Both the position numbers and the translations under genes were made by a program. A DNA stretch of 38,907 bases from Bacteroidota bacterium (GTDB lineage: Bacteria; Bacteroidota; Ignavibacteria; Tepidaquicellales; Tepidaquicellaceae): contig JAJTBN010000004.1 in the NCBI GenBank assembly GCA_021286895.1, positions 1 through 38,907 of the forward strand, in the 5' to 3' direction. This document shows positions 1,618 to 38,907 of the stretch, piece by piece. How positions within the stretch are numbered: position 1 is the stretch's first letter; each line of letters begins with the position of its first letter. The notes under the pieces are model-generated. The model did no database searches. It saw only the letters and a program-made list of their open reading frames with translations, and had not been told where the DNA came from.

Positions 1618-2442
1618 ATGGCAGATTCCAAAGAACTTAAACTTGGAAGCGTCCAGGAAACGTTGTTGCTTCCGTTGTGGGGTCGGGCGGTAGAGACCCG
1701 GAAAGAAAGACCTCTATTAATAGATAAGAAAGCAGTTTCAATTATCAAAACCATACCATACGATTTTGCCGTCATCTCAAAAAACATAAGCAGGCTGACG
1801 CGCGCGGCATGGATTGCAAGGAGCATCTACCTTGATAAAAAAATTTTGTCCTTCATAAATTCGTATCCCGATGCAACTGTTGTAAACGTCGGCTGCGGAC
1901 TTGATACAACGTTTGACCGCGTTGATAACGGTAAAATACAATGGATTGACCTCGATTTGCCGGATTCCATTGAATTGCGCAGAAAGTATATATCCGAATC
2001 TTTCCGCAGAAGTTTTATCTCATGTTCCGTCTTTGATAAATCCTGGTATTCTCAAATCAGAGATTCGAAAAAAGTAATGATTATGCTGGCGGGTGTTATT
2101 TACTATTTTGCCGAAACCGAGGTAAAAAATCTATTTAATGATATTCGGACTTACCTTCCCGGCGCTGAAATGATTTTTGATTATTCTTCGAAAAAAGGAG
2201 TGGAGGTCGCAAACAAACGGGTAATAGATAAAGGAGGCATGGATAAATCCGCCTATCTGAAGTGGGGCATCGACAATATTTATGAAATAGAAAAATGGTT
2301 TAGCGGGATTAATGTGCTTGAAACAATACCGATATTCCGCGAACACAAAAAGAATTATCCGTTATATAAAAGAATAGGGTTCAACATCTCCGACGCTTTA
2401 AAAATAATGTCTTTGGCACGCGTAAAAGTAAACGCCGGTTGA
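1618..2442 (+). CDS. Leucine carboxyl methyltransferase-family (TcmP-like) SAM-dependent O-methyltransferase
   Basis: This 274-aa protein has the signature of the LCMT/PPM1/TcmP family (PF04072). The SAM-binding motif is VVNVGCGLDTTFDR (GCG at residues 92-94), followed by IDLDLPD at about 110-116, where an acidic residue typically contacts the SAM ribose. Bacterial members methylate carboxyl groups of small molecules, often polyketide-like metabolites; the substrate here cannot be read. Length is normal for the family. Its stop lies about 86 bases before the likely ATG of the glycyl radical enzyme, so the two may share a transcript, but a functional link is not established. Confidence 0.85.
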   Translation: MADSKELKLGSVQETLLLPLWGRAVETRKERPLLIDKKAVSIIKTIPYDFAVISKNISRLTRAAWIARSIYLDKKILSFINSYPDATVVNVGCGLDTTFDRVDNGKIQWIDLDLPDSIELRRKYISESFRRSFISCSVFDKSWYSQIRDSKKVMIMLAGVIYYFAETEVKNLFNDIRTYLPGAEMIFDYSSKKGVEVANKRVIDKGGMDKSAYLKWGIDNIYEIEKWFSGINVLETIPIFREHKKNYPLYKRIGFNISDALKIMSLARVKVNAG

Positions 2443-2528
2443 TATTCTTAAATTATCGAACCCTGTTTATCTTTTTTATATTTCTAAAAAGAGGTAATTT
2501 ATTATTCAAATACTTATTTCGATTCATT

Positions 2529-5006: not shown

Positions 5007-5922
5007 GAATGCATTAATATTCGACATACAGGATTTGTCGGTTCAGGACGGGCCGGGCATACGTACTACCGTATTCCTGAAAGGCTGTCCGCTTAAATGC
5101 AAATGGTGCTCCAATCCAGAAGGACAGCAGTCATACCCGGAACTGATGCACGTCAACACCCTTTGCAAAAAAAATTACGAATGCGTTGCCGCCTGCCCAT
5201 ACGGCTCTTCTTCACGCAATCTAATAGACGAAGATAGTTATCCCGTTTTTAATAACGATATATGCAAATCATGCGAAACACGCGAATGTATTGAATCATG
5301 TCCGGAACAGGCGCTGAGATTCACGGGAAGAAATATAACGGTTGATGACTTGCTGAAGCGCGTTCTGGCAAATATCCGGTTTTATAAAAACTCCGGCGGC
5401 GGAGTTACATTTTCCGGCGGAGAGCCGTTTCTTCAAACGGAGTTCATAAAAAATTTTATTGAAAAAGCGCTGCCTCTCGGAATATCTTTCGGCGCGGAAA
5501 CCTGCGGTGTATTTGAGATTGAAAAAGTGAAGGAAATATATTCAAAACTCGAATTTCTTTATTATGATTTGAAGTGCATGGACGGAGAAATTCATAAAAT
5601 TCACACAGGAAGTACAAATAGAATAATTCTTGACAATCTCAAAAAACTTGCCGGGATTAATCCCGATATTATTATAGTTTCTGTTCCGGTTGTGCCGGGT
5701 GTGAACGCCGGCGAAACGCAGATTGACCGCATTGCTTCATTCTGTAAAGAATGCGGTATAAAAGAAATGCGCCTTCTGCCCTATCACAGTTTCGGCCGCG
5801 ACAAATATTCTTTCCTTGGCAGGGAATATAAAATGGATGACGGCGTCAGTGTTTCCGAAGAGGAAACAGAGCGATTCGTCTCAATTGTCACAGGGCACGG
5901 AATTTCCTGCAAGGCTGAATAA
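4996..5922 (+). CDS. Radical SAM glycyl-radical-enzyme activating protein
   Basis: This is the activase that installs the glycyl radical on the upstream enzyme using SAM and a [4Fe-4S] cluster. The radical SAM motif is CPLKCKWC (C-x3-C-x2-C), preceded by the family hallmark DGPGIRTTVFLKG. A ferredoxin-like insert follows, and the SAM-contact motif GGGVTFSGGEP is present. The family usually begins with a strand like IFDIQ before DGPGIRT, and here that strand (ALIFDIQDLSVQ) lies upstream of the first standard start, TTG 5035. Translation from ATT 4996 would give 308 aa; from TTG 5035 it would give 295 aa and lack the strand. Oddly, the first ferredoxin-like cluster motif reads C-KKN-YE-C-VAA-C, with Asn where the second Cys is expected. 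The second motif keeps four Cys. Confidence 0.9.
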   Translation: MTSENALIFDIQDLSVQDGPGIRTTVFLKGCPLKCKWCSNPEGQQSYPELMHVNTLCKKNYECVAACPYGSSSRNLIDEDSYPVFNNDICKSCETRECIESCPEQALRFTGRNITVDDLLKRVLANIRFYKNSGGGVTFSGGEPFLQTEFIKNFIEKALPLGISFGAETCGVFEIEKVKEIYSKLEFLYYDLKCMDGEIHKIHTGSTNRIILDNLKKLAGINPDIIIVSVPVVPGVNAGETQIDRIASFCKECGIKEMRLLPYHSFGRDKYSFLGREYKMDDGVSVSEEETERFVSIVTGHGISCKAE

Positions 5923-9245: not shown

Positions 9246-10637
9246 TTATTTTATTAAAGTTATTTTCTTGACGTCAGAGAAATTATCCGCCGTAAGTTTG
9301 CAGAAATATGTTCCGCTCGATAGCCTGCTTCCGTCAAAAAACACTTCATACGTTCCGGCGTTCAACCTTTCGTTCACGAGAGTCGCCGCGGCTTTTCCGG
9401 AGATGTCGTAAACAGTAATATTAACGTTTGAATTATTCTTTGCGGGAACGTCGAATTTTATTCTTGTCGCGGGATTAAACGGATTCGGGTAATTTTGATA
9501 AAGCCTGTAAGAAGCGGCGCCCGGGTCGGTGTTTCCCTGAATACCAAGCGGCTTGCTCAAGGTAAGCGTATCGATTACAGAATTAGTATTGCTGTAAATC
9601 GTCATCTGTATTGCCGCGCTTGTAACGTCGAAAACTCCGTAGCAGTACGACTGCGCCGACTTTACAACGAACGACGCGGATGTCGGAACGTAAAGGGGCG
9701 CGCCCCCGCCGCCGATTACAAACTCGTGAAGTCCGCCCGAAAGACAGTGCTGGTAAAAATGATTATGCCCGCAAAAAACCATGTCTACTCCTTTCGGTAT
9801 AAATATATTCGTGTACCATGACTGCATTGTGGCGTTTGACCCGTGCCCGCCGGATGAATAGGCAGGTTCATGGAAATATACAATTTTCCACCTTTTATTC
9901 GTCATCGTAAGATCGTTCATCGCCCAGTTGTACTGCGGACTTCCGACGGTGTACGAAACGGAATTGTTAATCGATACAAAGTGAACATCGCCCGCGTCGA
10001 ATGAATAATAATCCGGCGTGCCGGATGTTGAAGGCGGACTGAAGAAAAAGGCCTGATTGTTCGGACCCCAGTTTTCATGATTTCCGGACGTGGAAAAAAA
10101 CGGGACCCTGGAAATCAGATTTAACTCCTCAGTGACAAAATACTGGCTCTTCCATGAAGAGTAACTGTCGTCTATACAGTAATCTCCGGAATAGATAGAA
10201 AACAGCGGATTCATCCCGAGCATTGCTGTCGCTATTTGCCCGTGTGTCGTGGGATTGGAACGGCAGTCCCCCATAACGCAGAACCTGTAACCTGTGCCGG
10301 GAAGCACGCCCGAACGAAAACTTGTCACGGGAGAAGACGAAGAACCCTGCACCGCCTGATAAAAATAAATTGTATTGGCGGTAAGGTTTACCAGATTAAT
10401 TCTGTGAATGTAAGTGCTGCCCCCCGAAGTCGGAACAATAAACAGAGATTTGGCGCTTGAGCCGAACCCTCCGGTAAGTCCGTAATTTACCGTTACAGTA
10501 TCCGCCGTACTGCATTCAACGCACACAAAAACAGAATTTGATGTAAGCGCCTGAAGATACGGAGTCATTGAGATTGCCGAATACGAAAACGGACATAATA
10601 CTATAACCAGCAGTAATGCCGTAAGATGTTTCTTCAT
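9246..10637 (-). CDS. Secreted purple acid phosphatase-like metallophosphoesterase with T9SS sorting domain
   Basis: This 463-aa protein has a signal peptide (about 1-20). An N-terminal fibronectin-like domain covers about 21-112. A metallophosphoesterase core then carries the metal-ligand motifs in order: GDCR (Asp124), GDYC (Asp152), GNHE (Asn186, His187), FHEP (His256) and GHNH (His291, His293). This is the purple acid phosphatase layout. The C-terminus, from YQNYPNPFNPATRI, is a T9SS type A sorting domain, so the enzyme should be exported and attached to or released from the cell surface. A role in releasing phosphate from organic phosphoesters is inferred. All recognisable ligands are present. 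Confidence 0.9.
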   Translation of the reverse strand: MKKHLTALLLVIVLCPFSYSAISMTPYLQALTSNSVFVCVECSTADTVTVNYGLTGGFGSSAKSLFIVPTSGGSTYIHRINLVNLTANTIYFYQAVQGSSSSPVTSFRSGVLPGTGYRFCVMGDCRSNPTTHGQIATAMLGMNPLFSIYSGDYCIDDSYSSWKSQYFVTEELNLISRVPFFSTSGNHENWGPNNQAFFFSPPSTSGTPDYYSFDAGDVHFVSINNSVSYTVGSPQYNWAMNDLTMTNKRWKIVYFHEPAYSSGGHGSNATMQSWYTNIFIPKGVDMVFCGHNHFYQHCLSGGLHEFVIGGGGAPLYVPTSASFVVKSAQSYCYGVFDVTSAAIQMTIYSNTNSVIDTLTLSKPLGIQGNTDPGAASYRLYQNYPNPFNPATRIKFDVPAKNNSNVNITVYDISGKAAATLVNERLNAGTYEVFFDGSRLSSGTYFCKLTADNFSDVKKITLIK

Positions 10638-14378: not shown

Positions 14379-16934
14379 TCACTTCAGCAGAACCATTTTT
14401 CTCGTAGCCGCTTTTTCGCCGTTTATGTACAACGAATAGAAATATATTCCGCTCGGTGTGTTATTCCCGGAATACCGGATAATTGAAAATGGAATTTCGT
14501 ACGTACCTGATATAAGATTCTCTTTGATGAGGTCTGTTACTTTCTTTCCAAGTATGTCGTAAACAGACAGTGTTACAAAACTCTTTTCGCTTTTCGATTT
14601 TCCGTTTTCGGTTATGGAGAATTTAATTGTTGTAGAAGGATTGAACGGGTTCGGGTAATTCTGGTACAATGCGAATCCGACAGGCTCGGAGCTTCCTCCG
14701 GGCTGTATGTATTGTATCTGCGACAGATAGTTTGAATACGCGCTTCGGCCGTGAGTCCACGCGATTATCTTTGATGTTGGCTGGTGAAGTGTCAGGTCGT
14801 GAACAGGAACTGTCGTCGGGAGATTTCCAAATATGCTCCATGTCTGACCGAGGTTTGTCGTGACCATCACTCCGTAATCAGTGCCGGTATAAAGCGTCGA
14901 AGAATTGAACGGGTCAACAAGTATGTCGTTTACCGGAGCGTCGGGAAGATTACCGTTAATAGCCGTCCAGTTCGTTCCGTAGTTTGTAGTCCTGAAAACA
15001 TGCGCCCCCGTTGAATCTACCTTATACCCGGAAAGCGTTACGTAACATATATTCGCGTTTGAAGGGTCAATGGTCAATCTCGTTACCCATCTGTTCGGCA
15101 GCCCCGCGTTGATTAACGCCCAGTTTGTTCCTCCGTTTGTCGTTACCCATACGTTCGCGTCGTCGGTTCCCGCGTAGAGGACGTTCGTGTTTGTCTTGGA
15201 AACATCGAGTGTCGTGATTGTACCGAGGTTGGCTACGTGCGCCTTCGCGAGGTCAGGGCTGATTGCCGTCCATGACTGCATTCCGTTCGTTGTCCTGTAA
15301 ACTTTGAAAGTTCCGCAATAAAGCGTTGTAGGAGTGTTCTTGTCCATCACAAGCGGAGTGCTCCAGTTGGAATATGTAAGGTCTAAACCCGAGGTTCCTC
15401 CGTAAAACGACGCACCTCCGTTCGTTGAATAACCGAATGAGCCGTTCTGCGACGAAGCGTACATCCTCTGCGGGTTCTGGTAGTCGATAAGACAGTAAAA
15501 CCCGTCGCCCCCGTACACGGAATTCCACGCGCCGATACCACCGCTTGTCAGGTTTGTGCCGTTATCCTGTGCGCCTCCGATAAGCACGTTCGGGTTCTGG
15601 TAACTAATATCGCCGGCGTAGAACTGCGTCACGGGCAGAGTCGGGCTTTCTGTGAATGTGCTTCCGTTGTTGGTCGAGTAATTTATGCCTCCGTCGTTTC
15701 CTATCACAATATAGTTCGGATTTGTTCGCGCGAAACATACCGCGTGATGATCGACATGTATCGACGACAATGTCTGGTTTACGGAACTTCCGCCTGTGTT
15801 TGAAATTTCCATATACAGCCCGCCGCAGAAAATATGGTTGGGGTTGCCCGGGTCGACTTTAACGACGCGGTTAAACCACGCGTAATTTGAAGAGCCCCCG
15901 ATGGAGGTATTCGTATTCGTCCAGCTTGTTCCGCCGTCCGTCGATTTATAAAGACCGGAAGTATAACCGCTTGTGTTTGATAGCAGCGTGTAGATTGTCT
16001 GCGGATTGGACGGCGAAATGTCTATTGATATTCTTCCGAGGTTTGATGTATTCGACGGAAATCCTCCGTTTACAACCGTCCAGTTCGTTCCGGCGTTCGT
16101 CGATATGTACAGTGCCGACTTCGGGCCGCCGTATTTGACGTAATCCTCGCGGCGCGTTCTTTCCCACATTGCGGCGAATACAACGTTTGAATTTATCGGA
16201 TGAGTTACAACGTCGACCGCGCCGACTGAGTCCGCGACAAAAAGAGAAAGCGACCAGGTGTTTCCGGCGTCTGTAGATTTGTAAACTCCCCTTTCGGGAT
16301 TGTTATGCCTGAGCGAGCCGAGAGCGGCCGCGTAAACGATATTTGTATTGACGGGGTCAATCGCGATGTTGCCAATGCTGTATGTGTTCTGCAGCCCGGT
16401 GCAAACCCAGTTCAGACCGTAGTTAGTAGATTTGTATATGCCCGTGCCGGGATAATAACTTCTCAGCGAATTAGGCTCTCCCGTACCGCAGTATATAACG
16501 TTTGACGAAAGCGGATTAATAGCAAGCGCGCCGATTGAAGAAGTATTCTGATTGTCGAATACGCTTACCCATGACTGGCAGAAGTTCGTTGATTTCCAGA
16601 CTCCCCCGTTCGCGCAGCCCGTGTAAACAATCTGTGGATTTCCCGGGTCAATCGCGATTGTTGTAATCCGGCCTTCCACATTTGTCGGACCTGCAAGCGT
16701 CCAAGGGTCGGTGAGTTGTTTGCTCATACTCATACGGTTTCGGACGTATTCGAGAGATTTAACTCTTTCGTCGTTTGGAATCTCCGCGAACGGATAAGCG
16801 CGCTGCGTTTCGAACCAGCCGTAATCCGGTATTTCATCCGATTCTGTTTCCTTTTCCGTGAGATTTATCAGCAGTAAAAAAACGGGTATGGTGAGCGATA
16901 CCGCAAGAATAATTCTTGTATATTTTGAGACCAT
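14379..16934 (-). CDS. Large BNR/sortilin-like beta-propeller surface protein with T9SS sorting domain
   Basis: This 851-aa protein has a hydrophobic signal segment at about 7-25. The rest is built of repeats of the form IAIDPxNPxIVYxG...GVWKSTNxGxSW, each blade with an Asp-box (STNYGLNW, STDAGNTW, STNAGTNW, STDGGTSW, TTNGGTNW). This is the layout of VPS10/sortilin-type and GH74-like propellers, probably two propellers in tandem. No GH74 catalytic residues can be assigned by eye. The C-terminus from about residue 763 (YQNYPNPFNPSTTIKF) is a T9SS type A sorting domain. It is probably a secreted adhesion, scaffold or carbohydrate-active protein. No strong SD precedes the start. Confidence 0.85.
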   Translation of the reverse strand: MVSKYTRIILAVSLTIPVFLLLINLTEKETESDEIPDYGWFETQRAYPFAEIPNDERVKSLEYVRNRMSMSKQLTDPWTLAGPTNVEGRITTIAIDPGNPQIVYTGCANGGVWKSTNFCQSWVSVFDNQNTSSIGALAINPLSSNVIYCGTGEPNSLRSYYPGTGIYKSTNYGLNWVCTGLQNTYSIGNIAIDPVNTNIVYAAALGSLRHNNPERGVYKSTDAGNTWSLSLFVADSVGAVDVVTHPINSNVVFAAMWERTRREDYVKYGGPKSALYISTNAGTNWTVVNGGFPSNTSNLGRISIDISPSNPQTIYTLLSNTSGYTSGLYKSTDGGTSWTNTNTSIGGSSNYAWFNRVVKVDPGNPNHIFCGGLYMEISNTGGSSVNQTLSSIHVDHHAVCFARTNPNYIVIGNDGGINYSTNNGSTFTESPTLPVTQFYAGDISYQNPNVLIGGAQDNGTNLTSGGIGAWNSVYGGDGFYCLIDYQNPQRMYASSQNGSFGYSTNGGASFYGGTSGLDLTYSNWSTPLVMDKNTPTTLYCGTFKVYRTTNGMQSWTAISPDLAKAHVANLGTITTLDVSKTNTNVLYAGTDDANVWVTTNGGTNWALINAGLPNRWVTRLTIDPSNANICYVTLSGYKVDSTGAHVFRTTNYGTNWTAINGNLPDAPVNDILVDPFNSSTLYTGTDYGVMVTTNLGQTWSIFGNLPTTVPVHDLTLHQPTSKIIAWTHGRSAYSNYLSQIQYIQPGGSSEPVGFALYQNYPNPFNPSTTIKFSITENGKSKSEKSFVTLSVYDILGKKVTDLIKENLISGTYEIPFSIIRYSGNNTPSGIYFYSLYINGEKAATRKMVLLK

Positions 16935-18776: not shown

Positions 18777-20279
18777 TTACTTTATTAACGACATCTTTTT
18801 TGTTTCAACATAACCGTTGACTTCCAGTCTGTAAAAATATGTTCCCGAAGAAAGACTTGCCGCGTTCATTGTATAAGAATATTTTCCCGGTTCAAGTCTC
18901 TGCGAGACGAGCGTTGATAATTCTTTTCCGAGAATATCATATATCTTCAGGCTTACCATGCCCGCTTTCTTTATATCGAAATCTATGCTCGTCGTCGGGT
19001 TGAACGGATTCGGATAATTCTGCTTAAGGGAATAAGCGTCGGGTATTCCTGCTCCTAAATTCTGTCTGATTCCCGTCAGACTGTATCTGTTCCAGTAAAC
19101 CTTGTAAACGCTCGCGCTTCCGCCTACCCAGGCGGCTCCGACATCGCTGTTTCCTACCTCGACTATAATCGGTTTGCAGTTTGCGCTGCTCCAATGCGGA
19201 TAGAACTGCGAAATCTGCGTTGCCGTCGTGAACGTTCCGGGAGTCGGCGAAGATGCGAATCTGTACATGAGTTTGTCAGTGTTGTTTGTGGGACTTCCCG
19301 ACTGAAGGCTGTCGCTGTAATATATAAAATCGCAGTACTTTGTTGAAGTGGTTCCGCTGATGCCGACATCAAAATAATATTCGTCGGTATTCGGATTTCC
19401 CGCGGCGAGAAACGCGGTTCCGAATGTCAGGCCGTTGTCAATGCTTGTTCGGCAGTAAATATCTATCGCGCCTGTCGAACCTGATGTATAATAATACCAG
19501 GCAACACTGTTGGAAACCGCAACGTTGAACTCCGTTTTAAGCGCGCTGCTGTCTGCCATATCCTTGAAATCCATGGAGGCAAGAGTTCCCGGAGCGCTCT
19601 CGCGGTAACGGGCAAGACGCAAAATTGATTTTTCAATCGTAGTATTCACGGGCGATCTGTATGCGGCAAGAAGTGTATCGGACGTAACCGACATCGCGAG
19701 GCGTATGTTTCTTGAATTCGCCTGAACGTATCCGGCGTTCTGCCATGTGTATCCGTTCGTTATTGAGGCGAACCTTCTTAACCCGCCGGAGTTCGTAGTA
19801 ATCCAGAGGTAGATTGAATTTGTCGAACTCTTAACGATATCGAAGTCGTTGACGGTGGTAGAGTCAAACGCTCTTATAGCGTTTGTGTTTATATTCCAGC
19901 CGTAAACCTGTGTACCGAACATTAACCAGCAGATTACGGAGTCGTTCTGAACCTCGAGAAGTTTAATCCTCGGGAAATTAATCCTGTTTGTGAGAGAGTT
20001 GCCGTGCGTAGTCCAGGTCGCGCCGTTATCGGTGGACTTTCTTATAATTAGCCCGGACGTTGTCGAAAGAGTGTCGTTTATAGCGACGTAAATTGTCCCG
20101 TTCGATGCCTTGATTCCGTGCATCGGGCCGATGGGCTCGGTATTCAGAAGAAGAACGTTCGTTCCCCATGTGGCCGCGCCTGTCGGATTTGGCGGAAGCC
20201 CCGTCGATGTTACCGGCTGCGACATCAGATTGACGTAAGTTACAGCAATCAGAAATAAAAGAGTGAATAGTTTTTTCAT
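18777..20279 (-). CDS. BNR/sialidase-like secreted protein with T9SS sorting domain
   Basis: This 500-aa protein has a signal peptide (about 1-20, MKKLFTLLFLIAVTYVNLMS). Asp-box-like motifs are visible (STDNGATW, SITNGYTW, SIDNGLTF), which suggests a six-bladed sialidase-like propeller. Arg residues of a true sialidase active site cannot be assigned. The C-terminus from about 415 (KQNYPNPFNPTTSIDF, then KIYDILGKELSTLV and GTYFYRLEVNG) is a T9SS type A sorting domain. A secreted or surface role is well supported; enzymatic activity is not. Confidence 0.85.
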   Translation of the reverse strand: MKKLFTLLFLIAVTYVNLMSQPVTSTGLPPNPTGAATWGTNVLLLNTEPIGPMHGIKASNGTIYVAINDTLSTTSGLIIRKSTDNGATWTTHGNSLTNRINFPRIKLLEVQNDSVICWLMFGTQVYGWNINTNAIRAFDSTTVNDFDIVKSSTNSIYLWITTNSGGLRRFASITNGYTWQNAGYVQANSRNIRLAMSVTSDTLLAAYRSPVNTTIEKSILRLARYRESAPGTLASMDFKDMADSSALKTEFNVAVSNSVAWYYYTSGSTGAIDIYCRTSIDNGLTFGTAFLAAGNPNTDEYYFDVGISGTTSTKYCDFIYYSDSLQSGSPTNNTDKLMYRFASSPTPGTFTTATQISQFYPHWSSANCKPIIVEVGNSDVGAAWVGGSASVYKVYWNRYSLTGIRQNLGAGIPDAYSLKQNYPNPFNPTTSIDFDIKKAGMVSLKIYDILGKELSTLVSQRLEPGKYSYTMNAASLSSGTYFYRLEVNGYVETKKMSLIK

Positions 20280-25389: not shown

Positions 25390-27399
25390 ATGAAAAAGGT
25401 TTTTGCTCTTCTTCTCCTTGCGATTCTCGTCTCGTCCGCTTTCGCGCAGCAATTCAACGGTATGACGGGTTCGCAAATCTGTTCGCGCAACAAACAAAAC
25501 AGGATTTCGCACATGGACCCCGCGCTGCTGTCTCCGAACACCCCGCGGCACTCTTACGATGTTCAGAAATATACTCTCAATCTTGACATATACAACTGCT
25601 TCAAGACTTCTGCCAAGACGTTTACAGGCTCGGAAATAATGTCTTTCCGCGTCGACTCGTCTCTCAGTTCCATACAGTTGAACGCGGTATATTCATCTAT
25701 AGGTATAGATTCCGTAAGGCTGAACGGCGGAGCCGCGCTGGTGTTTTCGCACAGTTCATCCACAAACCTGCTTACGGTTACGCTCGACAGAACATACAAC
25801 ATCAATGAAATGGTGACGCTGTACATAAAATACCATCACAATAACGTCAGCGACGGTTCATTCAACGTCGGCTCGGGTTATGTTTATACCGATTGCGAAC
25901 CCGAAGGGGCGCGCGAATGGTTCCCCTGCTGGGACAGGCCGTCAGATAAAGCGACGTTCGACATAAAAGTAAAGGTTCCTTCAAATGTAAATATCGGCTC
26001 CAACGGCAGACTCGCGGATTCGGTAGTGAGCGCCGATACTATCTGGTATCACTGGATTAGCCGCGACCCGCTTTCGACATATCTCGCGGTGCTTACGGGT
26101 AAAACGGGATACAACGTCAGCATTGTCTGGTGGCACAAGATTTCAAACCCGAACGACAGCATTCCTATCCGCCTGTATTATTCAACAGGCGAGAATATCG
26201 CCCCGACAAGGGATGCAATTGCCGATATGACAACGTATTATTCACAGATGTTCGGAGAGCATCCTTACGAAAAAAACGGATTCGCCTCGGTTTCAAGTTA
26301 CGGAGGCGGCATGGAAAACCAGACGCTTACGACAATCTCGCCGAGCTGGAGTTCCGTTAACTATCTGATTTCGCACGAGTACGGACATCAGTGGTTCGGA
26401 GATTTGATTACATGCGGAACATGGGCCGATATATGGCTCAACGAAGGATTCGCAACTTATCTCGAAGCGCTGTATTATGAACACACATCCGGTTACGCGG
26501 CTTATAAAAACAGTATTGTGGGAAATGCAAATTCTTACATGGGAAGCAACCCCGGCTGGCCGATTTACAATCCGTCATGGGCAATTACGACCCCGCCGGT
26601 CGGAACACTCTTCAATGGAGCGATTACGTACGACAAGGGCGCGTGCGTTCTTCACATGCTGAGATACACAATAGGCGATTCGCTTTTCTTTGCCGGACTA
26701 AAAGCGTATGCTACCGATACGGTTAACTTCAAATTTAAAAACGCGGTTACGGACGACTTCACCGCGAAGATGAGTTCTGTCGCGGGACAGGACCTGACAT
26801 GGTTCATAGAGGAATGGGTCAAACAACCGAATCACCCGGCTTACCAGAACACTTACGGAATCTCAAATCTTGGAGGCGGAAGTTGGAGAGTGAACTTTAA
26901 GGCTTCTCAGACTCTGAGCAACACCACATTCCATAAAATGCCGATAGTGATTAAAGTCTCTTTTACTTCAGGAAGCGACTCTCTTATAAGAGTGATGAAC
27001 GACGTAAACAACCAGACGTTTTTGTTTACCTTCAACAGGCAGCCCACAGCAGTCGTGTTCGACCCGAACAACGATATCGTGATTAAAACGGCGACGCTTA
27101 CGGTCGGCGTAAATAACCTCGAAAATGAAGTTCCGAAAGATTTTTCTTTAGAGCAGAATTTTCCGAATCCGTTTAATCCGGAAACAAGCATTAAATTCGG
27201 CATTCCGAAAAACGCCTTTGTTACGCTGAAAATATTCGACGCCACAGGCAGGGAAATCGCGGCGCTGCTAAATGAACAGCGTTCTGCGGGCGTATATACC
27301 GTGGAATGGAAAGCCTCGTCCTATCCGAGCGGTGTGTATTTCTATACGATAAAAGCAGGCGAATTCAGCGAAACGAAAAAGATGCTTCTCGTAAAATAA
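25390..27399 (+). CDS. Secreted M1 family zinc aminopeptidase with T9SS sorting domain
   Basis: This 669-aa protein has a signal peptide at 1-19. An N-terminal beta-domain runs through the conserved WFPCWDRPSDKATF. The substrate exopeptidase loop reads GGMENQT. The zinc site is HEYGHQWFGD with His329, catalytic Glu330 and His333, plus third ligand Glu352 in LNEGFATYLE, matching HExxH-x18-E exactly. The C-terminal helical domain of large M1 enzymes is short or missing. In its place is a T9SS type A sorting domain from EQNFPNPFNPETSIKF. It likely trims peptides outside the cell. Confidence 0.95.
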   Translation: MKKVFALLLLAILVSSAFAQQFNGMTGSQICSRNKQNRISHMDPALLSPNTPRHSYDVQKYTLNLDIYNCFKTSAKTFTGSEIMSFRVDSSLSSIQLNAVYSSIGIDSVRLNGGAALVFSHSSSTNLLTVTLDRTYNINEMVTLYIKYHHNNVSDGSFNVGSGYVYTDCEPEGAREWFPCWDRPSDKATFDIKVKVPSNVNIGSNGRLADSVVSADTIWYHWISRDPLSTYLAVLTGKTGYNVSIVWWHKISNPNDSIPIRLYYSTGENIAPTRDAIADMTTYYSQMFGEHPYEKNGFASVSSYGGGMENQTLTTISPSWSSVNYLISHEYGHQWFGDLITCGTWADIWLNEGFATYLEALYYEHTSGYAAYKNSIVGNANSYMGSNPGWPIYNPSWAITTPPVGTLFNGAITYDKGACVLHMLRYTIGDSLFFAGLKAYATDTVNFKFKNAVTDDFTAKMSSVAGQDLTWFIEEWVKQPNHPAYQNTYGISNLGGGSWRVNFKASQTLSNTTFHKMPIVIKVSFTSGSDSLIRVMNDVNNQTFLFTFNRQPTAVVFDPNNDIVIKTATLTVGVNNLENEVPKDFSLEQNFPNPFNPETSIKFGIPKNAFVTLKIFDATGREIAALLNEQRSAGVYTVEWKASSYPSGVYFYTIKAGEFSETKKMLLVK

Positions 27400-31152: not shown

Positions 31153-31632
31153 ATGAAAATTCCAACAGAGTTAAAACATAAGCCTGTAATTGTTTCCGAA
31201 GAATACGACCTTATTGACGGGCGTCTGGCTTACAAATCGGACACAAAAGGCCTGTCTCTCGGGTTAGCGCAGTGGAACGAGCGCGGGAAAGTAGATATTT
31301 CAGCCAAGGTTTGGAGACATACGGGCGAGAAGTGGTCGCGGCAGTCTGAAGAAATGCCTTTGCACAGAGCGCTTGATCTTGCGATTTTAATTTGCAAGAC
31401 AAAATTGATTTTTAAGGAAAGGTACAGAAAGAACGAAAAGGATTATCCGAAGTTTCCGCTTCTCGACAGAATCGGACTTCAGGGCGGAGCGATGAATGTT
31501 TCGATTTGCGTGGATAACGAACACATAGAGGAAGACCTCGACCTTTTCGATAAGTGTCTCCGTGAGGACGATGAACTTATAAGCGAAAGGCTAAGGACTC
31601 TTATGAGGATATTAAAAGAACTCGAGTACTAA
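31153..31632 (+). CDS. DUF6530-like protein
   Basis: This 159-aa cytosolic protein begins MKIPTELKHKPVIVSEEYD and contains GLSLGLAQWNERGKVDISAKVW followed by RHTGEKWSRQSEEMPLHRALDL. This resembles what I recall of DUF6530-type proteins, whose function is unknown. The second half is charged and helical. It is followed 80 bases later by the GH130 gene on the same strand and may be co-transcribed. No SD precedes the ATG. Confidence 0.7.
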   Translation: MKIPTELKHKPVIVSEEYDLIDGRLAYKSDTKGLSLGLAQWNERGKVDISAKVWRHTGEKWSRQSEEMPLHRALDLAILICKTKLIFKERYRKNEKDYPKFPLLDRIGLQGGAMNVSICVDNEHIEEDLDLFDKCLREDDELISERLRTLMRILKELEY

Positions 31633-31712: not shown

Positions 31713-33167
31713 ATGAGAATTTCCGTCAACAGAAAGGCTGTCAGGATTTATCCTGATTCTAAGCGGGTCATTACCAGATTCTTTGACCACGGCGAAGTAA
31801 TAGCCCGTTCAATCGTGAGCAAGATTGAAGGGCTGAGCGAAGCCGAAGCCGAAAAATCGCTCAACTTTATACTCAGGGAATTTTCTAAACGCCACAGAAA
31901 CATCACGCAGATTTTTCTCCTCAACTATTCGAAGATGTATCACCACCTCGGAAAGTCGTTAACAAACGGGGATATGACATTTTCAAAGAAACTCCTTACC
32001 GGTTCGTATTTCACCATGGAGTATTCAATAGAATCCGCCGCGCTGTTTAATCCCTCAATCGTCGAGCACCCCGACCAGAGCGGTCTCGAAGAAGGCCAGA
32101 CGCGCGTCATCGTCAGTTTCAGGGCTACAGGGGAAAGTCATATTTCGTCTATTGTTTTCAGAAGCGGTATAATAGACAGGGATTATAATATTATGCTTGA
32201 CCCGAGAGGAAATTACGTAAGCGAAGCCGAAATTATAAAAGGATACGAATATAACAGAAATGAATTTCTGGCGATACTCGAAGAGCACGGCATACACAAC
32301 GATATTTCCGTGAAAATACTTAATGAACTCGGAGAAAGTTTTTATTATACGGAACTTAAGGAAATCGTAAAATCGGAACAGGATAAACACGACCTTAACC
32401 TTGACCAGAAAAAAACGCTCAAGGAAATGATGTGGCTCGCAAGGTCACATTATGAAATTGTATTCTCGCTTGATACCGATATATCTGAAAGAGTCATATT
32501 TCCGATTTCAAAAACGGAAAGCAACGGCATCGAAGACGCAAGGTTCGTGAAGTTTACTGATGATGACGGCGATTCGGTTTATTACGCGACTTACACTGCA
32601 TACGACGGATACACAATACTGCCGAAACTGCTCGAAACTAAAGACTTTTATCATTTCAAAAATCTTCCGCTGCACGGCGAATGCACGAAAAATAAAAACT
32701 TCGCGTTGTTTCCGAAAAAAGTAAACGGTAAATACGCCATGCTTTCACGGCTCGACGGTTACCGCCAGTATATTATGTTCTCCGATAATATTACAATCTG
32801 GGAAACCGCTTCCATATTACGTGAACCGATGTATGACTGGGAACTCATAAAAATCGGCAACTGCGGTTCGCCTATTGAAACGAAAGAAGGGTGGCTTGTT
32901 ATTACCCACGGAGTCGGCCGCATGAGAAGATACTGCATCGGAGCGATTCTGCTCGACCTGAAAGACCCTTCGAAAGTAATTGGCAGTCTGAAAGAACCGC
33001 TTATTGTTCCCAATGAAGACGAAAGAGAAGGGTATGTACCTAACGTTGTGTATTCATGCGGTTCAATGCTTGTAAAGGAGGTGCTTGTAATTCCTTATGC
33101 CATTTCGGACTACGCTTCTTCGTTCGCCACAGTGAACCTTGATGTTGTTTTAAAGAACATGAATTGA
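31713..33167 (+). CDS. GH130 family glycoside phosphorylase/hydrolase
   Basis: This 484-aa protein shows five-bladed propeller features of GH130: FNPSIVEHPDQ near residues 112-122, the core motif NGIEDARFVKF (Asp275 in the family's E-D-x-R-F stretch), a K-x-FALFPKKVNGKYAMLSRLDG segment, and GNCGSPIETKEGWLVITHGVG. Known GH130 members phosphorolyse or hydrolyse beta-mannosides (beta-1,4 or beta-1,2), and the related GT108 enzymes build beta-1,2-mannan. It lacks a signal peptide and should act on intracellular glycan. Its stop is only 7 bases from that of the convergent GT4 gene, supporting a functional pair. The exact linkage is not readable from sequence. Confidence 0.85.
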   Translation: MRISVNRKAVRIYPDSKRVITRFFDHGEVIARSIVSKIEGLSEAEAEKSLNFILREFSKRHRNITQIFLLNYSKMYHHLGKSLTNGDMTFSKKLLTGSYFTMEYSIESAALFNPSIVEHPDQSGLEEGQTRVIVSFRATGESHISSIVFRSGIIDRDYNIMLDPRGNYVSEAEIIKGYEYNRNEFLAILEEHGIHNDISVKILNELGESFYYTELKEIVKSEQDKHDLNLDQKKTLKEMMWLARSHYEIVFSLDTDISERVIFPISKTESNGIEDARFVKFTDDDGDSVYYATYTAYDGYTILPKLLETKDFYHFKNLPLHGECTKNKNFALFPKKVNGKYAMLSRLDGYRQYIMFSDNITIWETASILREPMYDWELIKIGNCGSPIETKEGWLVITHGVGRMRRYCIGAILLDLKDPSKVIGSLKEPLIVPNEDEREGYVPNVVYSCGSMLVKEVLVIPYAISDYASSFATVNLDVVLKNMN

Positions 33168-33174
33168 AATGATT

Positions 33175-35415
33175 TTATTTTTCATATTCATGCTCGAATT
33201 CAAATGCCCTCATCAGTGTCAGGTGAGATATCAGGTAAGCGATAGAACTCTCCGCTCCCTGATTCCTGTTTAAACCGTATTCTTCAAGTCCGTCCGCGCA
33301 TCCGCCTGTTTCATAATCGTAAACAGGAAGCCCGAGTTCGTTTTTTCCGAGAAACCACATGAAAGTAATGAACATCTGCTCCGGGTATTTGTGATTTCCT
33401 GTAACCATGTACGCTTCGAAAAGCAGCATTATCATTCCCATGGCTTCGACCGCCTGCTGAGCGAATTCGGCGCGAACGCCTCCTTTCGGATACCAGCCCC
33501 GGCTTCCAACCGGTTTGAAATATCCCGCGCCGAGCGTGACGCTTACAAGAAAATCTGTTGACTCCACGGCTGTTTTCAGCAATACGCCGTCGTTCGTGAT
33601 TCCCGCCGCGCGGAACAACGCGAGAGGAATAATCGCGTTGTCATACGTCAGTTCGTTTTCGAACCATTCCCAGCCCTTAACGGAATTATTTTTATACATT
33701 GCCGCGAGTTTCCCGGAAAGAGAACGGATTAAACGTTCCTCATTCTCGCCGGAGGCGTGTTTTTGTACGTAATATGACAACCCAATCAATGAATTCGCGA
33801 TACCTCTCGGGTAATTAAGGCTCGATATTTCCTTTAAGGATTCTCTGAAAATATCGAAAGCGGCGTCGTGATAGGAATTGTCAGGCGCGTTTAGTATCAG
33901 ATATCCGAGCGCCCAGATTGTCCTTCCGAAACAGTCCTCCGAGCCTTTTGAATCGAGGAATGTTCTGTTGAATGCCAGGAAATTCCTGAAAGTGCCGTCA
34001 TCATTCTGCATATAGTGTACAAAACTTAGATAGACCGGCATTAGCGAAAGTGCTTCGCGTGATTTGCTGATATGATGTGCCATCGCGGCCATCAGAAGCG
34101 CGCGGGCGTTATCGTCAAGACAGTATCCTTCTTTCAGGTTCGGAATTCCGAATTTCGCGTGCTGGACTATACCCGTATCATCAGTGAGGCGTCTTATGTG
34201 TGAAAGATTGAATTCCGGCAGAAGCATAGGGTCCAGCGATGTCTTTCTTTTATAGGGCACGTAACGGAAACTTTCTTTTGCCGATTTAGCCGTCATGATA
34301 TATCTGGCGCCGATTTTCGGCCATTTTAATTTCTGCCCGTACTCGAAAGCGGCTTCGCGCAGTTTTTCGATCTTATCCCTGTTGTCAAGAAGGTCGAGAA
34401 GTATGTTTCCGAGTTGAACATGGTTGCGGAAATCAAAAAGCACACCGCGTCCGTCTGAAAGCAGTTCAACGGCGTGCCAGTACGGCGTTGATATCACAGC
34501 GGTGCCCGCGCCTACGGCGTATGAAAGCGTACCGCTCGTAATCTGCGCTTCGTTCAGATAAGGCGTAATATAAATATCAGCGGCATGAAGATATTCCATC
34601 AACTGCTCTTCGGGCACGAAATTTTCATAAAAGTAAACGTGATTCTCGAGTCCTTTTTCCTTAACGAGCCGCCGCAGGGATTCGCGGTACTCCTCGCCGT
34701 GTTTTACGAGAACCTTCGGATGTGTTTTGCCGAGGACGATGTAAAGCACGTCATTGTGCTTTTCGACAACCCGCGGCAGGGCTTCTATGACCGTTTCGAT
34801 TCCCTTATTCCTGCTGAGCAGTCCGAAAGTAAAAAGCGTAGTCTTATTCGAAAAGTTGTATTTTTCCCTGACTGTTTCCCTGTGAAGTATCCTGCTTACA
34901 GGAACACCGTGTTCGATTATTTCTATTTTCTCTTCAGGGATGCCGTACACTTCAGTGAGAAACTTTACGGCTTTGCCGCTCATCACAACCACCTTAAACG
35001 CTTTTTTCCCGAGTTCCTGTACGATGGTTTTCTGTATGTGAGTCGGCTCGCGCAATACGGTGTGAAATGTAACGATGAGAGGTATTTCTATTCTTCCGGC
35101 GAGCGACAGAATGTACACGCCGCTTTCACCGCCGAAGATTCCGAATTCATGCTGTATTAAACATGCGTCGGCTTTGTTATGATTGATAAACCGCGCCGCT
35201 TTCACATAATCCCTCTGGCTGTTTTGATTTACGACAAACGCCACTTCATCCGGATAATGATATCCGTTCAGAGAATCGTTGACGGCAATTACGTAAAGAT
35301 TTGGAAAAAGGTCGTTGTAACCGAAATTGCCGGCTACAGCCTTCATAAGGTTATTTGTAAAGGTTCCTATTCCGCATTTCTGCGGCGGATATGTTCCTAC
35401 GAACGCGAGTTTCAT
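33175..35415 (-). CDS. Two-domain protein: GT4 glycosyltransferase fused to an alpha/alpha-barrel domain
   Basis: This 746-aa protein has no signal peptide. Residues about 1-385 are a GT-B, GT4-family glycosyltransferase: FVGTYPPQKCGIGTFTNNL at the N-terminus, QHEFGIFGG, LLSRNKGIETVIEALP, and the donor-site region PYLNEAQITSGTLSYAVGAG with a following AVELL. Residues about 400-746 form a helical, six-hairpin-glycosidase-like domain (GYCLDDNARALLMAAMAHH, KGSEDCFGRTIWALGYL, ENELTYDNAIIPLAL, LNRNQGAESSIAYLISHL). This fusion next to GH130 is a pattern I recall from other bacteria, but its product is not known to me. It likely makes a mannose-containing glycan. It is the second gene of the GT2-GT4 minus-strand unit. 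Confidence 0.85.
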   Translation of the reverse strand: MKLAFVGTYPPQKCGIGTFTNNLMKAVAGNFGYNDLFPNLYVIAVNDSLNGYHYPDEVAFVVNQNSQRDYVKAARFINHNKADACLIQHEFGIFGGESGVYILSLAGRIEIPLIVTFHTVLREPTHIQKTIVQELGKKAFKVVVMSGKAVKFLTEVYGIPEEKIEIIEHGVPVSRILHRETVREKYNFSNKTTLFTFGLLSRNKGIETVIEALPRVVEKHNDVLYIVLGKTHPKVLVKHGEEYRESLRRLVKEKGLENHVYFYENFVPEEQLMEYLHAADIYITPYLNEAQITSGTLSYAVGAGTAVISTPYWHAVELLSDGRGVLFDFRNHVQLGNILLDLLDNRDKIEKLREAAFEYGQKLKWPKIGARYIMTAKSAKESFRYVPYKRKTSLDPMLLPEFNLSHIRRLTDDTGIVQHAKFGIPNLKEGYCLDDNARALLMAAMAHHISKSREALSLMPVYLSFVHYMQNDDGTFRNFLAFNRTFLDSKGSEDCFGRTIWALGYLILNAPDNSYHDAAFDIFRESLKEISSLNYPRGIANSLIGLSYYVQKHASGENEERLIRSLSGKLAAMYKNNSVKGWEWFENELTYDNAIIPLALFRAAGITNDGVLLKTAVESTDFLVSVTLGAGYFKPVGSRGWYPKGGVRAEFAQQAVEAMGMIMLLFEAYMVTGNHKYPEQMFITFMWFLGKNELGLPVYDYETGGCADGLEEYGLNRNQGAESSIAYLISHLTLMRAFEFEHEYEK

Positions 35416-35595
35416 GATATATCACAAACTACTTTTAATTTTTCAGGGATACAGGTTGTGTAATTCAGAATTTACCGCGGCAGCCGGACCGAGAACACGG
35501 ACTCCTGGAAAGTATGTTTAATGAAATATATGAAATAAGATGTAAAAATCTACATGATTATTACGGGTACAAACCTTTAAAAACTGCGGGATTTA

Positions 35596-36588
35596 TCAAT
35601 AATGCGTGGTGGCGTCCCAGACAACTTTCTTCTTGGTTTTCCTGAATACGCTTACCGACCTTATTATCGCGAAGAAATTTATGAACGTGTCTATACCGAG
35701 CCTGAACAGACTTGCCGCGGCATAACGGAATCCGTACCAGTTGTACGTGAAAACAAAACGATGAAATCCTTTTGATACCATGAACACGAGATTGAACATC
35801 ATCAGCGACATAAGCACGGGTGATAACTTACCGCTGAGAAGCGTGTTGTCAAAACCGAGCGCAGTGCCCGCGGCGAGATATATGAAATATCCGAGTACAA
35901 TGTATGACAGAAAAGTCGACATAAAACTTAAAAGCGGTTTTCTGTCGCGGAACATGAAGTACTTGGTGGTAAGGTTGCCTTTCCATTTGTGCGCTTTCCA
36001 GTTCTGAAGGCAAATGCCCGCAATCCATCTTGACCTCTGTTTGACGGCTGGCCAGAACTTATTCGGAAAGAATTCGGCTGTGGCAATTCTTGTCGAATTC
36101 CTTTCTCCGTCGAGTTTGACATTGAAGAACCCCGTCTTCAGCCCGAGTTGATAAAAACGCAGCCCGAGTTCGTAATCCTCTGTAAGGTTTTCGTCGTTGA
36201 AAATTCCCTCGGTCTTCTTCCCGGGACGAAGGACAACGGGCTCGTCTTCAAAGCCTGATTTTCCAGCCTTTACATTTTCCTCCGAAGCCGGATTTCCCGC
36301 GGTGCTGCTGATTCCCGCTATGTATTTGCCTAAAAGCGTTTCAGCGTTTTCAAGACTGCCGTCTGTGTGCGTTGATGATTTTATTTCGTTGTACGGGCCG
36401 AGATCGTAGCCGAGTTCCCTGTCAAATATATCAATAAGTTTTCTGAATAGGTCGCCGCTCCGGCTATTATCGCTTTCCGCACCTTCGTACGCGCTGTAGT
36501 CGGAAGTATTTCTCTTAAGATTTGTCGAATCTCCTGAAGAAACAGATTTATTTCTGCTGTCTTTGCTGATTTTCTGCTGTGAACTCAA
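35596..36588 (-). CDS. C-terminal half of an NfrB-like GT2 glycosyltransferase
   Basis: Read from a TTG at 36588 with a weak aaaggg SD, this is 330 aa. Residues about 1-127 are Ser/Asn/Asp-rich and contain LFRKLIDIFDRELGYDLGPY. The second half of a processive GT2 domain then begins abruptly: IFNDENLTEDYELGLRFYQLG with the acceptor-site TED, and KQRSRWIAGICLQNW with the QxxRW motif. Three or so membrane helices follow (about 210-235, 255-270 and 293-312). The first half of the domain, including the Asp motif, is in the preceding ORF. The two are in the same frame, separated by two TAA codons. Alone, this half should be inactive. Confidence 0.8.
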   Translation of the reverse strand: MSSQQKISKDSRNKSVSSGDSTNLKRNTSDYSAYEGAESDNSRSGDLFRKLIDIFDRELGYDLGPYNEIKSSTHTDGSLENAETLLGKYIAGISSTAGNPASEENVKAGKSGFEDEPVVLRPGKKTEGIFNDENLTEDYELGLRFYQLGLKTGFFNVKLDGERNSTRIATAEFFPNKFWPAVKQRSRWIAGICLQNWKAHKWKGNLTTKYFMFRDRKPLLSFMSTFLSYIVLGYFIYLAAGTALGFDNTLLSGKLSPVLMSLMMFNLVFMVSKGFHRFVFTYNWYGFRYAAASLFRLGIDTFINFFAIIRSVSVFRKTKKKVVWDATTHY

Positions 36589-36618
36589 AACTTACCCTTT
36601 ATTATTTAAAACTTCTAT

Positions 36619-37830
36619 TTAGTACTTAAAAAATTTGTTCTTTGAAAATGTGTTGCTGCCGCCCGCGAGTGTAATATCAGTTTTCAGGGAAACGGCCATG
36701 TTCGTTGGCGTCTTTCCGTCTTTTTCCTTTGCGGCTGTTGATTTCGCAGGCCCGGATAATCTGCCCGCTTCCGTGTTTGTTTCCTTTGTCACGCCGGCGA
36801 TTACTGAATTGTCCGTTCCGTTAAAAGAACTTCCGGCGTACACAAACAGCGCTCCCGCGGACAGTACGAATATTATAAACACCGCCGTGTAGGCCAGTAT
36901 GACTCTTTTTGTTCCGGATATATCCGATGAAGGTTTTTCATTCAGAGTCTCAAAAGGATTTTCCGTATATTTCGTATTGTTAAAGTACTCCGCGGCGCCG
37001 GAATGTTTTTCCGTATTGCCAAAGTATTCATCCGTTGTTTCCACATTTCTTCCGAACCTGTCTTTGAAGTTGTCCTCATTTGTTAGACCGCTTACGGCTT
37101 CTTTCATGCTGTTCTGTTTTTCGATGCAGTACATTGATTTTCTGTGGAAACCCATACCCGTTCCAGAAAAAGGCATGAACGTTTTCATTTCCTGTCTGAT
37201 TATCATATCTTTCGTGTGCGTTTCGGCGAAAGCATCGCAGTATGTTCTGTGTATCATGTTTCCCAGATTGCTCTTGATAGGAACTACGGGAATTTGAATA
37301 CCGTGATAACCCCTGTAGCCGATTAGGAAATTATAGAGTTTCAGCGAACGGGGATGAATGAAATCTTCCGCGTCGTGCACGAGAAGAATCTCGAACTCTC
37401 CGAATTGTTTCTCGAAATCGCATACCGCTGTATACATATTGTTAAGGTTGTCCGCCTTCGTGGTCGGACCGTCCTGCGGATTGATTACCATCTTAACGCG
37501 TCTGTCGGTTTCGGATATTTTGCTTACCACGTCAATAGTTTTCCGGTCGTTCGGGTAAACCCCGACAAATATCCTGTAATTTGAGTAACGCAGGTTTTTA
37601 ACGGCAAAACTCAAAGTGCGGCCTATAACGCCCGATTCGTTCCAGGCTCCGAGAATTATCGCAATCGGCTTTTCGGGTTTGTCGTACATTTCGGAAAAAT
37701 CCGGCAGCGACGCCCTGTGCCTTCTCTTAAGCACCCAGTACATCAAGTCGACGTATAAATCGTCAATACCGCTGATTGCGAGCATAGCTGCCGCAATCCA
37801 TATTAACACATGGAAAATTTCAAAAAGCAT
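36619..37830 (-). CDS. N-terminal half of an NfrB-like GT2 glycosyltransferase
   Basis: This 403-aa protein starts with a membrane helix (about 6-34). The first half of a GT2 catalytic domain follows: IAIILGAWNESGVIG, YRIFVGVYPND, KADNLNNMY, the metal-site VHDAEDFIHP, and FSGTGMGFHRK at about 218-228. Where the domain should continue to the TED motif, the protein instead runs into an Asn/Thr/Glu-rich stretch. An extra membrane helix (VILAYTAVFIIFVLSAGALF, about 307-326) and a hydrophilic tail ending NTFSKNKFFKY complete it. The missing half is encoded by the next ORF in the same frame. It leads the minus-strand unit with the GT4 gene. Confidence 0.8.
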   Translation of the reverse strand: MLFEIFHVLIWIAAAMLAISGIDDLYVDLMYWVLKRRHRASLPDFSEMYDKPEKPIAIILGAWNESGVIGRTLSFAVKNLRYSNYRIFVGVYPNDRKTIDVVSKISETDRRVKMVINPQDGPTTKADNLNNMYTAVCDFEKQFGEFEILLVHDAEDFIHPRSLKLYNFLIGYRGYHGIQIPVVPIKSNLGNMIHRTYCDAFAETHTKDMIIRQEMKTFMPFSGTGMGFHRKSMYCIEKQNSMKEAVSGLTNEDNFKDRFGRNVETTDEYFGNTEKHSGAAEYFNNTKYTENPFETLNEKPSSDISGTKRVILAYTAVFIIFVLSAGALFVYAGSSFNGTDNSVIAGVTKETNTEAGRLSGPAKSTAAKEKDGKTPTNMAVSLKTDITLAGGSNTFSKNKFFKY

Positions 37831-38195
37831 TTGTCTGAATTTTAATTTGATCTCGTCACGGCCATAAACTGTTCATAGCAGGAATGCCGTGATTACGCTC
37901 TGCCGGTTTAACTATTGAGAAAAGTGTTAAGAAGTGATTTTTTGTCGTGTAAAAATATTCCCTTAACCTTTACTTCTCAATTGCATACAATAATGGCAGT
38001 AAAGCAATTGTTTTTCGTGAAGTAAATTGCATGTATTACCCTTTACCTTAATCTGTACCTGCAATATATAAAAAATTTTCTGCCTATAAAGTTCCGAAAC
38101 CGCTTAAAATCTGATATCGCGGCGTTGTTACCCTTTTAAACGACAAAATGAAGATAAACGAAAATATTTTTTTGACGTCGTTTTGAAGGAATAAA
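37831..38195. other. Intergenic region upstream of the split GT2 genes
   Basis: About 365 AT-rich bases with no supported gene. They presumably hold the promoter of the minus-strand GT2-GT4 unit. No specific regulatory site was identified. Confidence 0.5.
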
Positions 38196-38221
38196 AAAAG
38201 CGGAACAGTGTTCCGCTTTTC
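38195..38221 (-). terminator. Terminator of the edge gene
   Basis: A perfect 7-bp stem (gcggaac / gttccgc) with loop agt has flanking A- and T-runs. On the minus strand it is followed by a long T-run, placed 23 bases after the stop of the edge gene. Confidence 0.88.
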
Positions 38222-38243
38222 ATATCAATGTATAATTTTTCTG

Positions 38244-38907
38244 TCAGTTCTTCTTGATTGGTTTTGTCGCTTTCCATCTTCCGTTCATGCTGAGTCCGAA
38301 GTTTGAACCTGACCATTCTCCCGTAATTGTATAATTTCCGCCGTCGGGTTTTACGGTGCCTGTAAAATGATACTTCGTCATCATGTATGTTGTGCTCGCC
38401 TCGAGATTTCCGTCGTTGAATTTGAAATTAAGAGGCGGCGGCGGCATCGTTCCGCCTTTAGTCGACATCTTCGCGTATATTTCGTTTTCGGATACGAGAG
38501 TTACCGTCATGCTCATCGGAAGAAACTCCCCTTTGCCCGTTAGCATTGCATCCTTGATTTTCTTCTCGGCCATTTTTATCGGCGTGCTCCATGAATCCCA
38601 GCATGTGCCTCCGTCCCATTCGCCGACAAGGTCTTTCGCTTCAATCTTGCCGCCGACAAGAATAGTCTTGCACGATTTAGTGTCGAGCCGCGTGATTTTT
38701 ACTGTGATGATTGTTTCGGGTTTTGGTATTGTCAGAGACCATGTTGCCGAACCCGCTGAAGAAAGTTCCTTTCTTTTTTCTCCACCGAGAGCATAATCAC
38801 CGCCCGAGCATTCTATCTCAAGCATCGTTCCTTTGTCGCTTACGGATTCCAGAATCGCGGTTACCTTAAATTCTGGAGACGCGCCTTCCGATTTCAGTTC
38901 AACGGTC
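38244..38907 (-). CDS. Secreted lipocalin-like protein, 5' end outside the window
   Basis: The frame is open from the right edge to a stop at 38244; the visible part is 220 aa, and an internal ATG at 38825 is probably not the start because coding-like sequence (SEGASPEFKVTAILESVSDK) precedes it. The visible sequence has two parts. A beta-rich segment (EIECSGGDYALGGEKRKELS, then SLTIPKPETIITVKITRL) comes first. A C-terminal lipocalin-like domain then begins DLVGEWDGGTCWDSW and ends GEWSGSNFGLSMNGRWKATK. Proteins of this type are usually extracytoplasmic, but the signal peptide is not in view. Function is unknown. Confidence 0.7.
   Translation of the reverse strand, partial: TVELKSEGASPEFKVTAILESVSDKGTMLEIECSGGDYALGGEKRKELSSAGSATWSLTIPKPETIITVKITRLDTKSCKTILVGGKIEAKDLVGEWDGGTCWDSWSTPIKMAEKKIKDAMLTGKGEFLPMSMTVTLVSENEIYAKMSTKGGTMPPPPLNFKFNDGNLEASTTYMMTKYHFTGTVKPDGGNYTITGEWSGSNFGLSMNGRWKATKPIKKN

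Follow-up and report, generated by a model that had tools for sequence, protein, structure and literature searches.

The window analysed here, a stretch of 38,907 nt from a 3.07 Mb genome assembled in 330 contigs, contains two consecutive minus-strand ORFs whose translations each resemble a different part of one family 2 glycosyltransferase (GT2) catalytic domain, with the N-terminal half lying upstream of the C-terminal half. This arrangement raises the question of whether the ORFs are the remains of one damaged gene or encode the two chains of a working enzyme. An initial annotation had left both options standing, namely a genuine two-subunit glycosyltransferase or a single gene with a large insertion and later nonsense mutations.

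The layout described in that annotation is confirmed. The first ORF carries GAWNES, HDAEDFIHP and SGTGMGF, the second carries LTED and QRSRW, and the two are separated by 33 bases (36589-36621) that include two in-frame TAA codons, with both ORFs in the same frame. The NCBIfam profile NF011305 matches N-half residues 7-239 over profile positions 6-237 (E 8e-68) and C-half residues 126-329 over positions 239-453 (E 9e-39), such that the halves jointly cover positions 6-453. Because the match stops at 237 and resumes at 239, the break falls between virtually adjacent profile positions, and this placement of one GT2 profile over two ORFs is far beyond chance. Neither half reaches the whole-protein cut-off of 409 bits (scores are 229.8 and 133.9), and the best curated family matches for either half are NfrB and NfrB-like equivalogs. 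Together the ORFs hold the Asp, TED and QxxRW motifs of a GT2 enzyme and an NfrB-type match over its length; what they do not form is the single polypeptide of an NfrB-like GT2 synthase. The cut and the inserted residues are positioned between the GTG and TED motifs of the catalytic domain. Of roughly 300 extra residues at the break, 164 belong to the first chain, among them an added membrane helix (about 170 had been annotated), and 125 to the second (about 127 annotated). The features of the pair are collected in Table 1.

Table 1. Features of the split glycosyltransferase genes and neighbouring genes (window positions, unless a locus is named)
Feature	Position	Strand	Description or basis
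N-half chain ORF	36619..37830	-	403 aa, ATG start; N-terminal TM, GT2 donor-binding half, linker, second TM, polar tail
GT2 N-core, residues 1-239, with GAWNES, TKADN, HDAED, SGTG	37114..37830	-	NF011305 E 7.6e-68, PF13641 E 2.4e-26
HDAED, catalytic Asp motif	37363..37377	-	Sequence; D153, E155 and D156 invariant
Conserved linker motif NNTKYTENPF	36952..36981	-	Before TM in most split N-halves
Added membrane helix, residues 310-328	36847..36903	-	Predicted from hydropathy and charge count; three K/R before, none after
Polar tail, predicted periplasmic	36622..36846	-	SPOR-like domain at the tail end of long paralogues, lost here
AAAGGGTAA, ribosome-binding-site-like element directly before TTG start	36592..36600	-	Core AAGGGTAA by exact search
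C-half chain ORF	35596..36588	-	330 aa, TTG start; polar/helical extension, GT2 acceptor and catalytic-base half, C-terminal TMs
C-half N-terminal extension, 125 aa	36214..36588	-	Same part in long paralogues is DUF772 plus coiled coils
LTED catalytic motif (TED)	36175..36186	-	Sequence; invariant in split and single-chain copies
QRSRW (QxxRW) motif	36025..36039	-	Sequence; Q, S, R and W invariant in alignment
GT4-family glycosyltransferase, 746 aa, downstream of C-half	33175..35415	-	Adjoins this copy in G001 too (71% identity)
TPR/barrel gene examples	L075:6313-8004, L083:6342-7988, L091:6952-7938, L087:7000-8007		

A search of related genomes, all sequences compared being from metagenome-assembled genomes (MAGs), revealed the split in 14 genomes representing 8 genera of one family of uncultured Ignavibacteria. 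Some of these genomes carry two or three split pairs, and the window's own genome carries three. The numbers of N- and C-halves are equal in every genome except the fragmented assembly G009, which has one N-half and two C-halves. In all 16 pairs that are intact on one contig a stop codon lies between the halves. What is conserved, then, is a two-chain arrangement in which separate ORFs share the active site between them. The single-chain form, one continuous ORF of ~445-490 aa, is present in the order's other family (f2; 15 genomes), in one genus within the split family (G026 and G028) and in two distant genomes of the class (G222 and G384). A tree of the concatenated cores is compatible with the split having arisen once (AU p = 0.44), with G026/G028 and G006 taking no firm position in the tree. 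In the single chains of G026 (L053:6982-8436) and G028 (L054:6211-7665) this site holds a different insertion, ~40 aa long and unrelated to that of the split copies, so the loop is insertion-tolerant.

The two in-frame TAA codons in a MAG and the shared frame of the window's ORFs are what might be expected from a sequencing error or a recent pseudogene, in which one gene acquired an insertion and nonsense mutations. Yet 14 genomes from independent assemblies share the split, where an error in this contig would have left uninterrupted ORFs in close relatives. Moreover, comparison with the nearest orthologue (G002) gives core dN/dS values of 0.023 (N-half) and 0.029 (C-half), not the value near 1 of a pseudogene, with synonymous sites near saturation (pS ~0.7; pN ~0.05). 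The extensions evolve faster than the cores but are constrained nonetheless (dN/dS 0.06-0.36 where measurable). Finally, GAWxE, TKADN, HD(A/S)ED, (A/S)GTG, LTED and Q(R/K)SRW are kept in all 20 split pairs. Apparent frameshifts in G008 adjoin undetermined bases (X in translations) and were left out as signs of decay. This conservation and strong purifying selection refute both a sequencing error and a gene disabled by nonsense mutations, to which we assign a negligible probability.

Could the two ORFs nevertheless be joined into one chain by stop-codon read-through or programmed frameshifting? The C-half is in the same frame as the N-half in 7 of the 16 intact pairs, as read-through would require, but it is in frame 1 in six others and in frame 2 in the remaining three. 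The second ORF starts 6-60 nt past the first stop, and both the stop codons and the spacing vary among pairs. Because all three frames and this range of spacings occur, a common read-through or frameshifting mechanism is excluded. Furthermore, exact searching located AAGGGTAA, the core of a ribosome-binding-site-like element, next to the C-half start of 8 out of 21 copies, against a background of 0.002 per 40 nt. The window and several relatives have the full element, AAAGGGTAA, immediately in front of this start, and in the window its last three bases form the second in-frame TAA. We consider joining of the ORFs during translation very unlikely. The distribution, the purifying selection, the variable frames and the element in eight copies all favour the other option of the initial annotation, a genuine two-subunit enzyme.

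Two further copies of the same element lie in the non-coding region that precedes the N-half (window 38043 and 38135, minus strand), and these copies may be regulatory. Because of them, a role for AAAGGGTAA other than ribosome binding is conceivable.

The nature of the added residues is clearest in longer paralogues of the window pair. In these, the first chain continues through a linker and one TM into a C-terminal SPOR-like domain (PF05036), matched with E 2.4e-8 in L051 and at the same place in other long copies with E 2e-4 to 6e-2, several of these matches being slightly under the Pfam cut-off. Most split N-halves carry a linker motif before the TM with the consensus N-x-T-x-Y-x-D-(D/N)-P-F, which in most long copies resembles N-x-T-x-Y-x-(D/N)-D-P-F; judging from its sequence, the window's version could be a docking motif. 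Every complete N-half except that of G006 has one such TM, positively charged on its cytoplasmic flank, and in split copies positive charge precedes the TM and none follows it. The added helix is therefore predicted to run from cytoplasm to periplasm, and on the same grounds the SPOR-like domain of long copies should be periplasmic. Since only one helix is added, the C-half of a continuous chain would end up in the periplasm, a further point against read-through; separate translation would spare the C-half this placement.

The second chain of the long paralogues begins with DUF772, a domain found at the N-terminus of IS5-type transposases (PF05598; E 3.7e-9 in L041, 1.3e-8 in L052 and 5e-5 in L051, Pfam), continues with a coiled coil and ends with the GT2 C-half. 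In G006 the split and DUF772 are present, whereas the TM and SPOR domain are absent; the TM module may be a later acquisition, or G006 may have lost it. Because G006 is split without the added helix or SPOR domain, topology alone does not force the split. The G006 pair (L052:10099-13887) has a second chain of 932 aa that combines DUF772 with a very long charged repeat region. The window copy and its short paralogue group contain neither SPOR nor DUF772. As this group nests among long copies in the tree, its members are trimmed derivatives, and the window copy is a shortened paralogue from which both domains were lost. This placement, the SPOR and DUF772 domains of the longer paralogues' insert, and the occurrence of single-chain outgroups in the same operon (see below) go beyond the initial annotation.

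These contents also bear on whether the insert is spliced out, as an intron or an intein-like element, so that one chain results. The insert does sit at a single fixed site within a conserved domain, as a splicing element might. On the other hand, no Rfam intron family was detected over 35000-38907, no Hint match appeared in Pfam scans of the window ORFs or long copies, and the insert encodes recognizable SPOR and DUF772 domains and extensions under measurable constraint. Splicing of this kind is extremely improbable.

The genomic setting of the long copies points to a possible product. Most long split copies, and usually the single-chain genes of f2, lie in an operon with the order TPR and/or predicted barrel protein, GT2, and UDP-GlcNAc 2-epimerase (PF02350), often with an alpha/beta hydrolase gene as well. 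A TPR/barrel gene, recognized by TPR and position, adjoins nearly all long split copies and the single-chain outgroups, and the PF02350 gene lies downstream of most long copies and of those outgroups. NfrA, NfrB and WecB of E. coli have been put forward as a system for making and exporting a ManNAc-based polymer (PMC8669472; PMC8669469), and their putative counterparts in long paralogues and f2 are the TPR/barrel protein, the GT2 and the epimerase. Because the operon mirrors NfrA, NfrB and WecB, a ManNAc polymer is the likeliest product of the long copies, which by this analogy probably make an exported ManNAc-containing polymer. The barrel protein matches an NfrA model (PRK09782) with E 0.037 only, via TPR. 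Unlike NfrB, the catalytic domain here is divided between two chains, with SPOR and DUF772 added in long copies. E. coli NfrB also carries a C-terminal MshEN domain that binds c-di-GMP (PMC8669469); no Pfam match to MshEN was found in the window ORFs or long copies, and the single-chain relatives measure just 445-446 aa. The TPR/barrel gene upstream is larger where the split occurs, from 328 aa without a TPR match in f2 and 335 aa with TPR in G028 to ~550 aa in many of the lineages with split copies.

The window copy has neither a barrel nor an epimerase gene as neighbour, and a PF02350 copy is located on another contig (C81) of the same genome. Its neighbours are GT4 and GH130 genes, an arrangement it shares with G001 only. 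Specifically, window 31713-35415 encodes the GT4 enzyme and a GH130 phosphorylase-like protein, and G001 adds a second GH130 and another GT4. A gene for a DUF6530 protein (window 31153-31632; E 1e-71) also adjoins the split pair in G002 (L067). Elsewhere, the window encodes a pyruvate-formate-lyase-like glycyl-radical enzyme followed by a radical SAM activase (2439-5922), and four proteins that carry C-terminal sorting domains for type IX secretion (9246-10637, 14379-16934, 18777-20279 and 25390-27399).

If the chains are made separately, do they act together? Structure predictions are consistent with this possibility. In an AlphaFold model of a read-through chain that includes both halves, the pLDDT block means over C-half residues 117-156, a stretch containing the TED helix, are 75-88, compared with ~31-52 when the C-half is predicted alone (for residues 127-156, means of ~78-88 with the N-half and ~34-52 alone), although a joint model built as a single linked chain favours contact, and the alignments differed in depth (34 versus 21 rows). 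A strand that ends this stretch is assigned in the joint model only, and the membrane part of the C-half has similar pLDDT in both runs. These models suggest that folding of the C-half core depends on the N-half. Foldseek hits for the read-through model include hyaluronan synthase, cellulose synthase and further GT2 enzymes, all at low query TM-scores (0.16-0.25); these matches may cover the N-half only and were left out as proof of assembly. A sequence search with a single-chain relative gave no match among solved structures.

The halves also evolve in step. Distances among N cores and among C cores correlate with r = 0.94 (0 of 2000 permutations), a value which indicates that pairs are unshuffled and is not proof of contact, since relatedness alone gives strong correlation; the nearest neighbour is identical for the N- and C-half in 17 of 20 copies. 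These matched rates, like the whole catalytic motif set kept over both halves, speak against parted functions, in which one half works alone, or both serve only as scaffold or regulator, with no joint active site. Extra roles are suggested by the added SPOR, DUF772 and coiled-coil segments, and the epimerase/barrel context is lost in the window copy, but neither half contains a complete active site and the core of the lone C-half is predicted to be poorly ordered. We judge parted functions to be unlikely.

The pair is thus, with high probability on the sequence evidence, a natural two-chain NfrB-like GT2 polysaccharide synthase of GT-A fold that arose by gene fission and whose halves assemble into one enzyme. 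The split, its conservation, the selection on both halves, the intact motifs, the operon position and the domain content come directly from computation; the physical assembly, the activity, the topology, the sugar and the order of events at the insertion we infer. The first chain would contribute the donor-sugar side of the active site (HDAED and GTG) together with the membrane helix at its N-terminus, and the second the TED base, the QRSRW motif and the C-terminal membrane helices. An ancestral single-chain gene would have been cut by an insertion in the loop between GTG and TED. The first half would have acquired a membrane helix and a periplasmic SPOR-like domain, and the second a coiled coil and the N-terminal domain of an IS5 transposase. 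Each chain would be translated on its own, and most likely the two join into one active enzyme, the window copy being a later, trimmed paralogue.

More tentatively, and with slightly less than even confidence, we propose that an IS5-type element split the synthase. The transposase N-terminus would have been kept as the start of the second chain and the TM-SPOR segment as the end of the first; assembly of the enzyme could then be linked to the cell wall by way of SPOR, and the split gene would later have been duplicated and spread in the family. This origin is plausible because the second chain starts with the transposase's own N-terminal domain. The long C-half start matches a transposase ORF of G009 (33% identity, E 4.8e-12), the only clearly related ORF among candidates for the source. 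Full DUF772 transposases of the same family showed no useful BLAST similarity to the fused domain, and neither an intermediate for such an insertion nor a close source transposase was found among the genomes compared. Unlike IS5-type transposases, whose N-terminal domain they share, the long C-halves lack the DDE catalytic domain and are fused to half a glycosyltransferase. The long N-halves likewise resemble SPOR-domain proteins in having one TM followed by a C-terminal periplasmic SPOR-like domain, but differ from others in that this domain is joined to half a glycosyltransferase.

Two-chain glycosyltransferases are known in Alg13/Alg14 and EpsE/EpsF, which derive from one ancient gene split (PMC8993221). 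The likeness is that a glycosyltransferase is made as two chains. Those enzymes are of GT-B type with a MurG-like ancestor and are divided between two globular domains, whereas the present GT-A (GT2) domain is cut internally, separating donor-side from base-side motifs. Assignment of the window pair to the Alg13/Alg14 type was rejected on the GT2 profiles in both halves and the fold matches to GT-A/GT2. Literature searches returned no precedent for a GT-A domain naturally divided between donor-side and base-side motifs, and none on point for a split GT2 or a SPOR-glycosyltransferase. What is new here is the position of the cut, inside a GT-A catalytic domain, together with what was added.

Split genes of this kind in MAGs risk being annotated as broken. 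The pairs described here offer a ready-made, evolution-tested two-piece polysaccharide synthase for studies of complementation and regulation, and a traceable gene fission in which a transposase domain was recruited. For the bacteria that carry the long copies, the SPOR-like domain hints that polysaccharide synthesis may be tethered to peptidoglycan.
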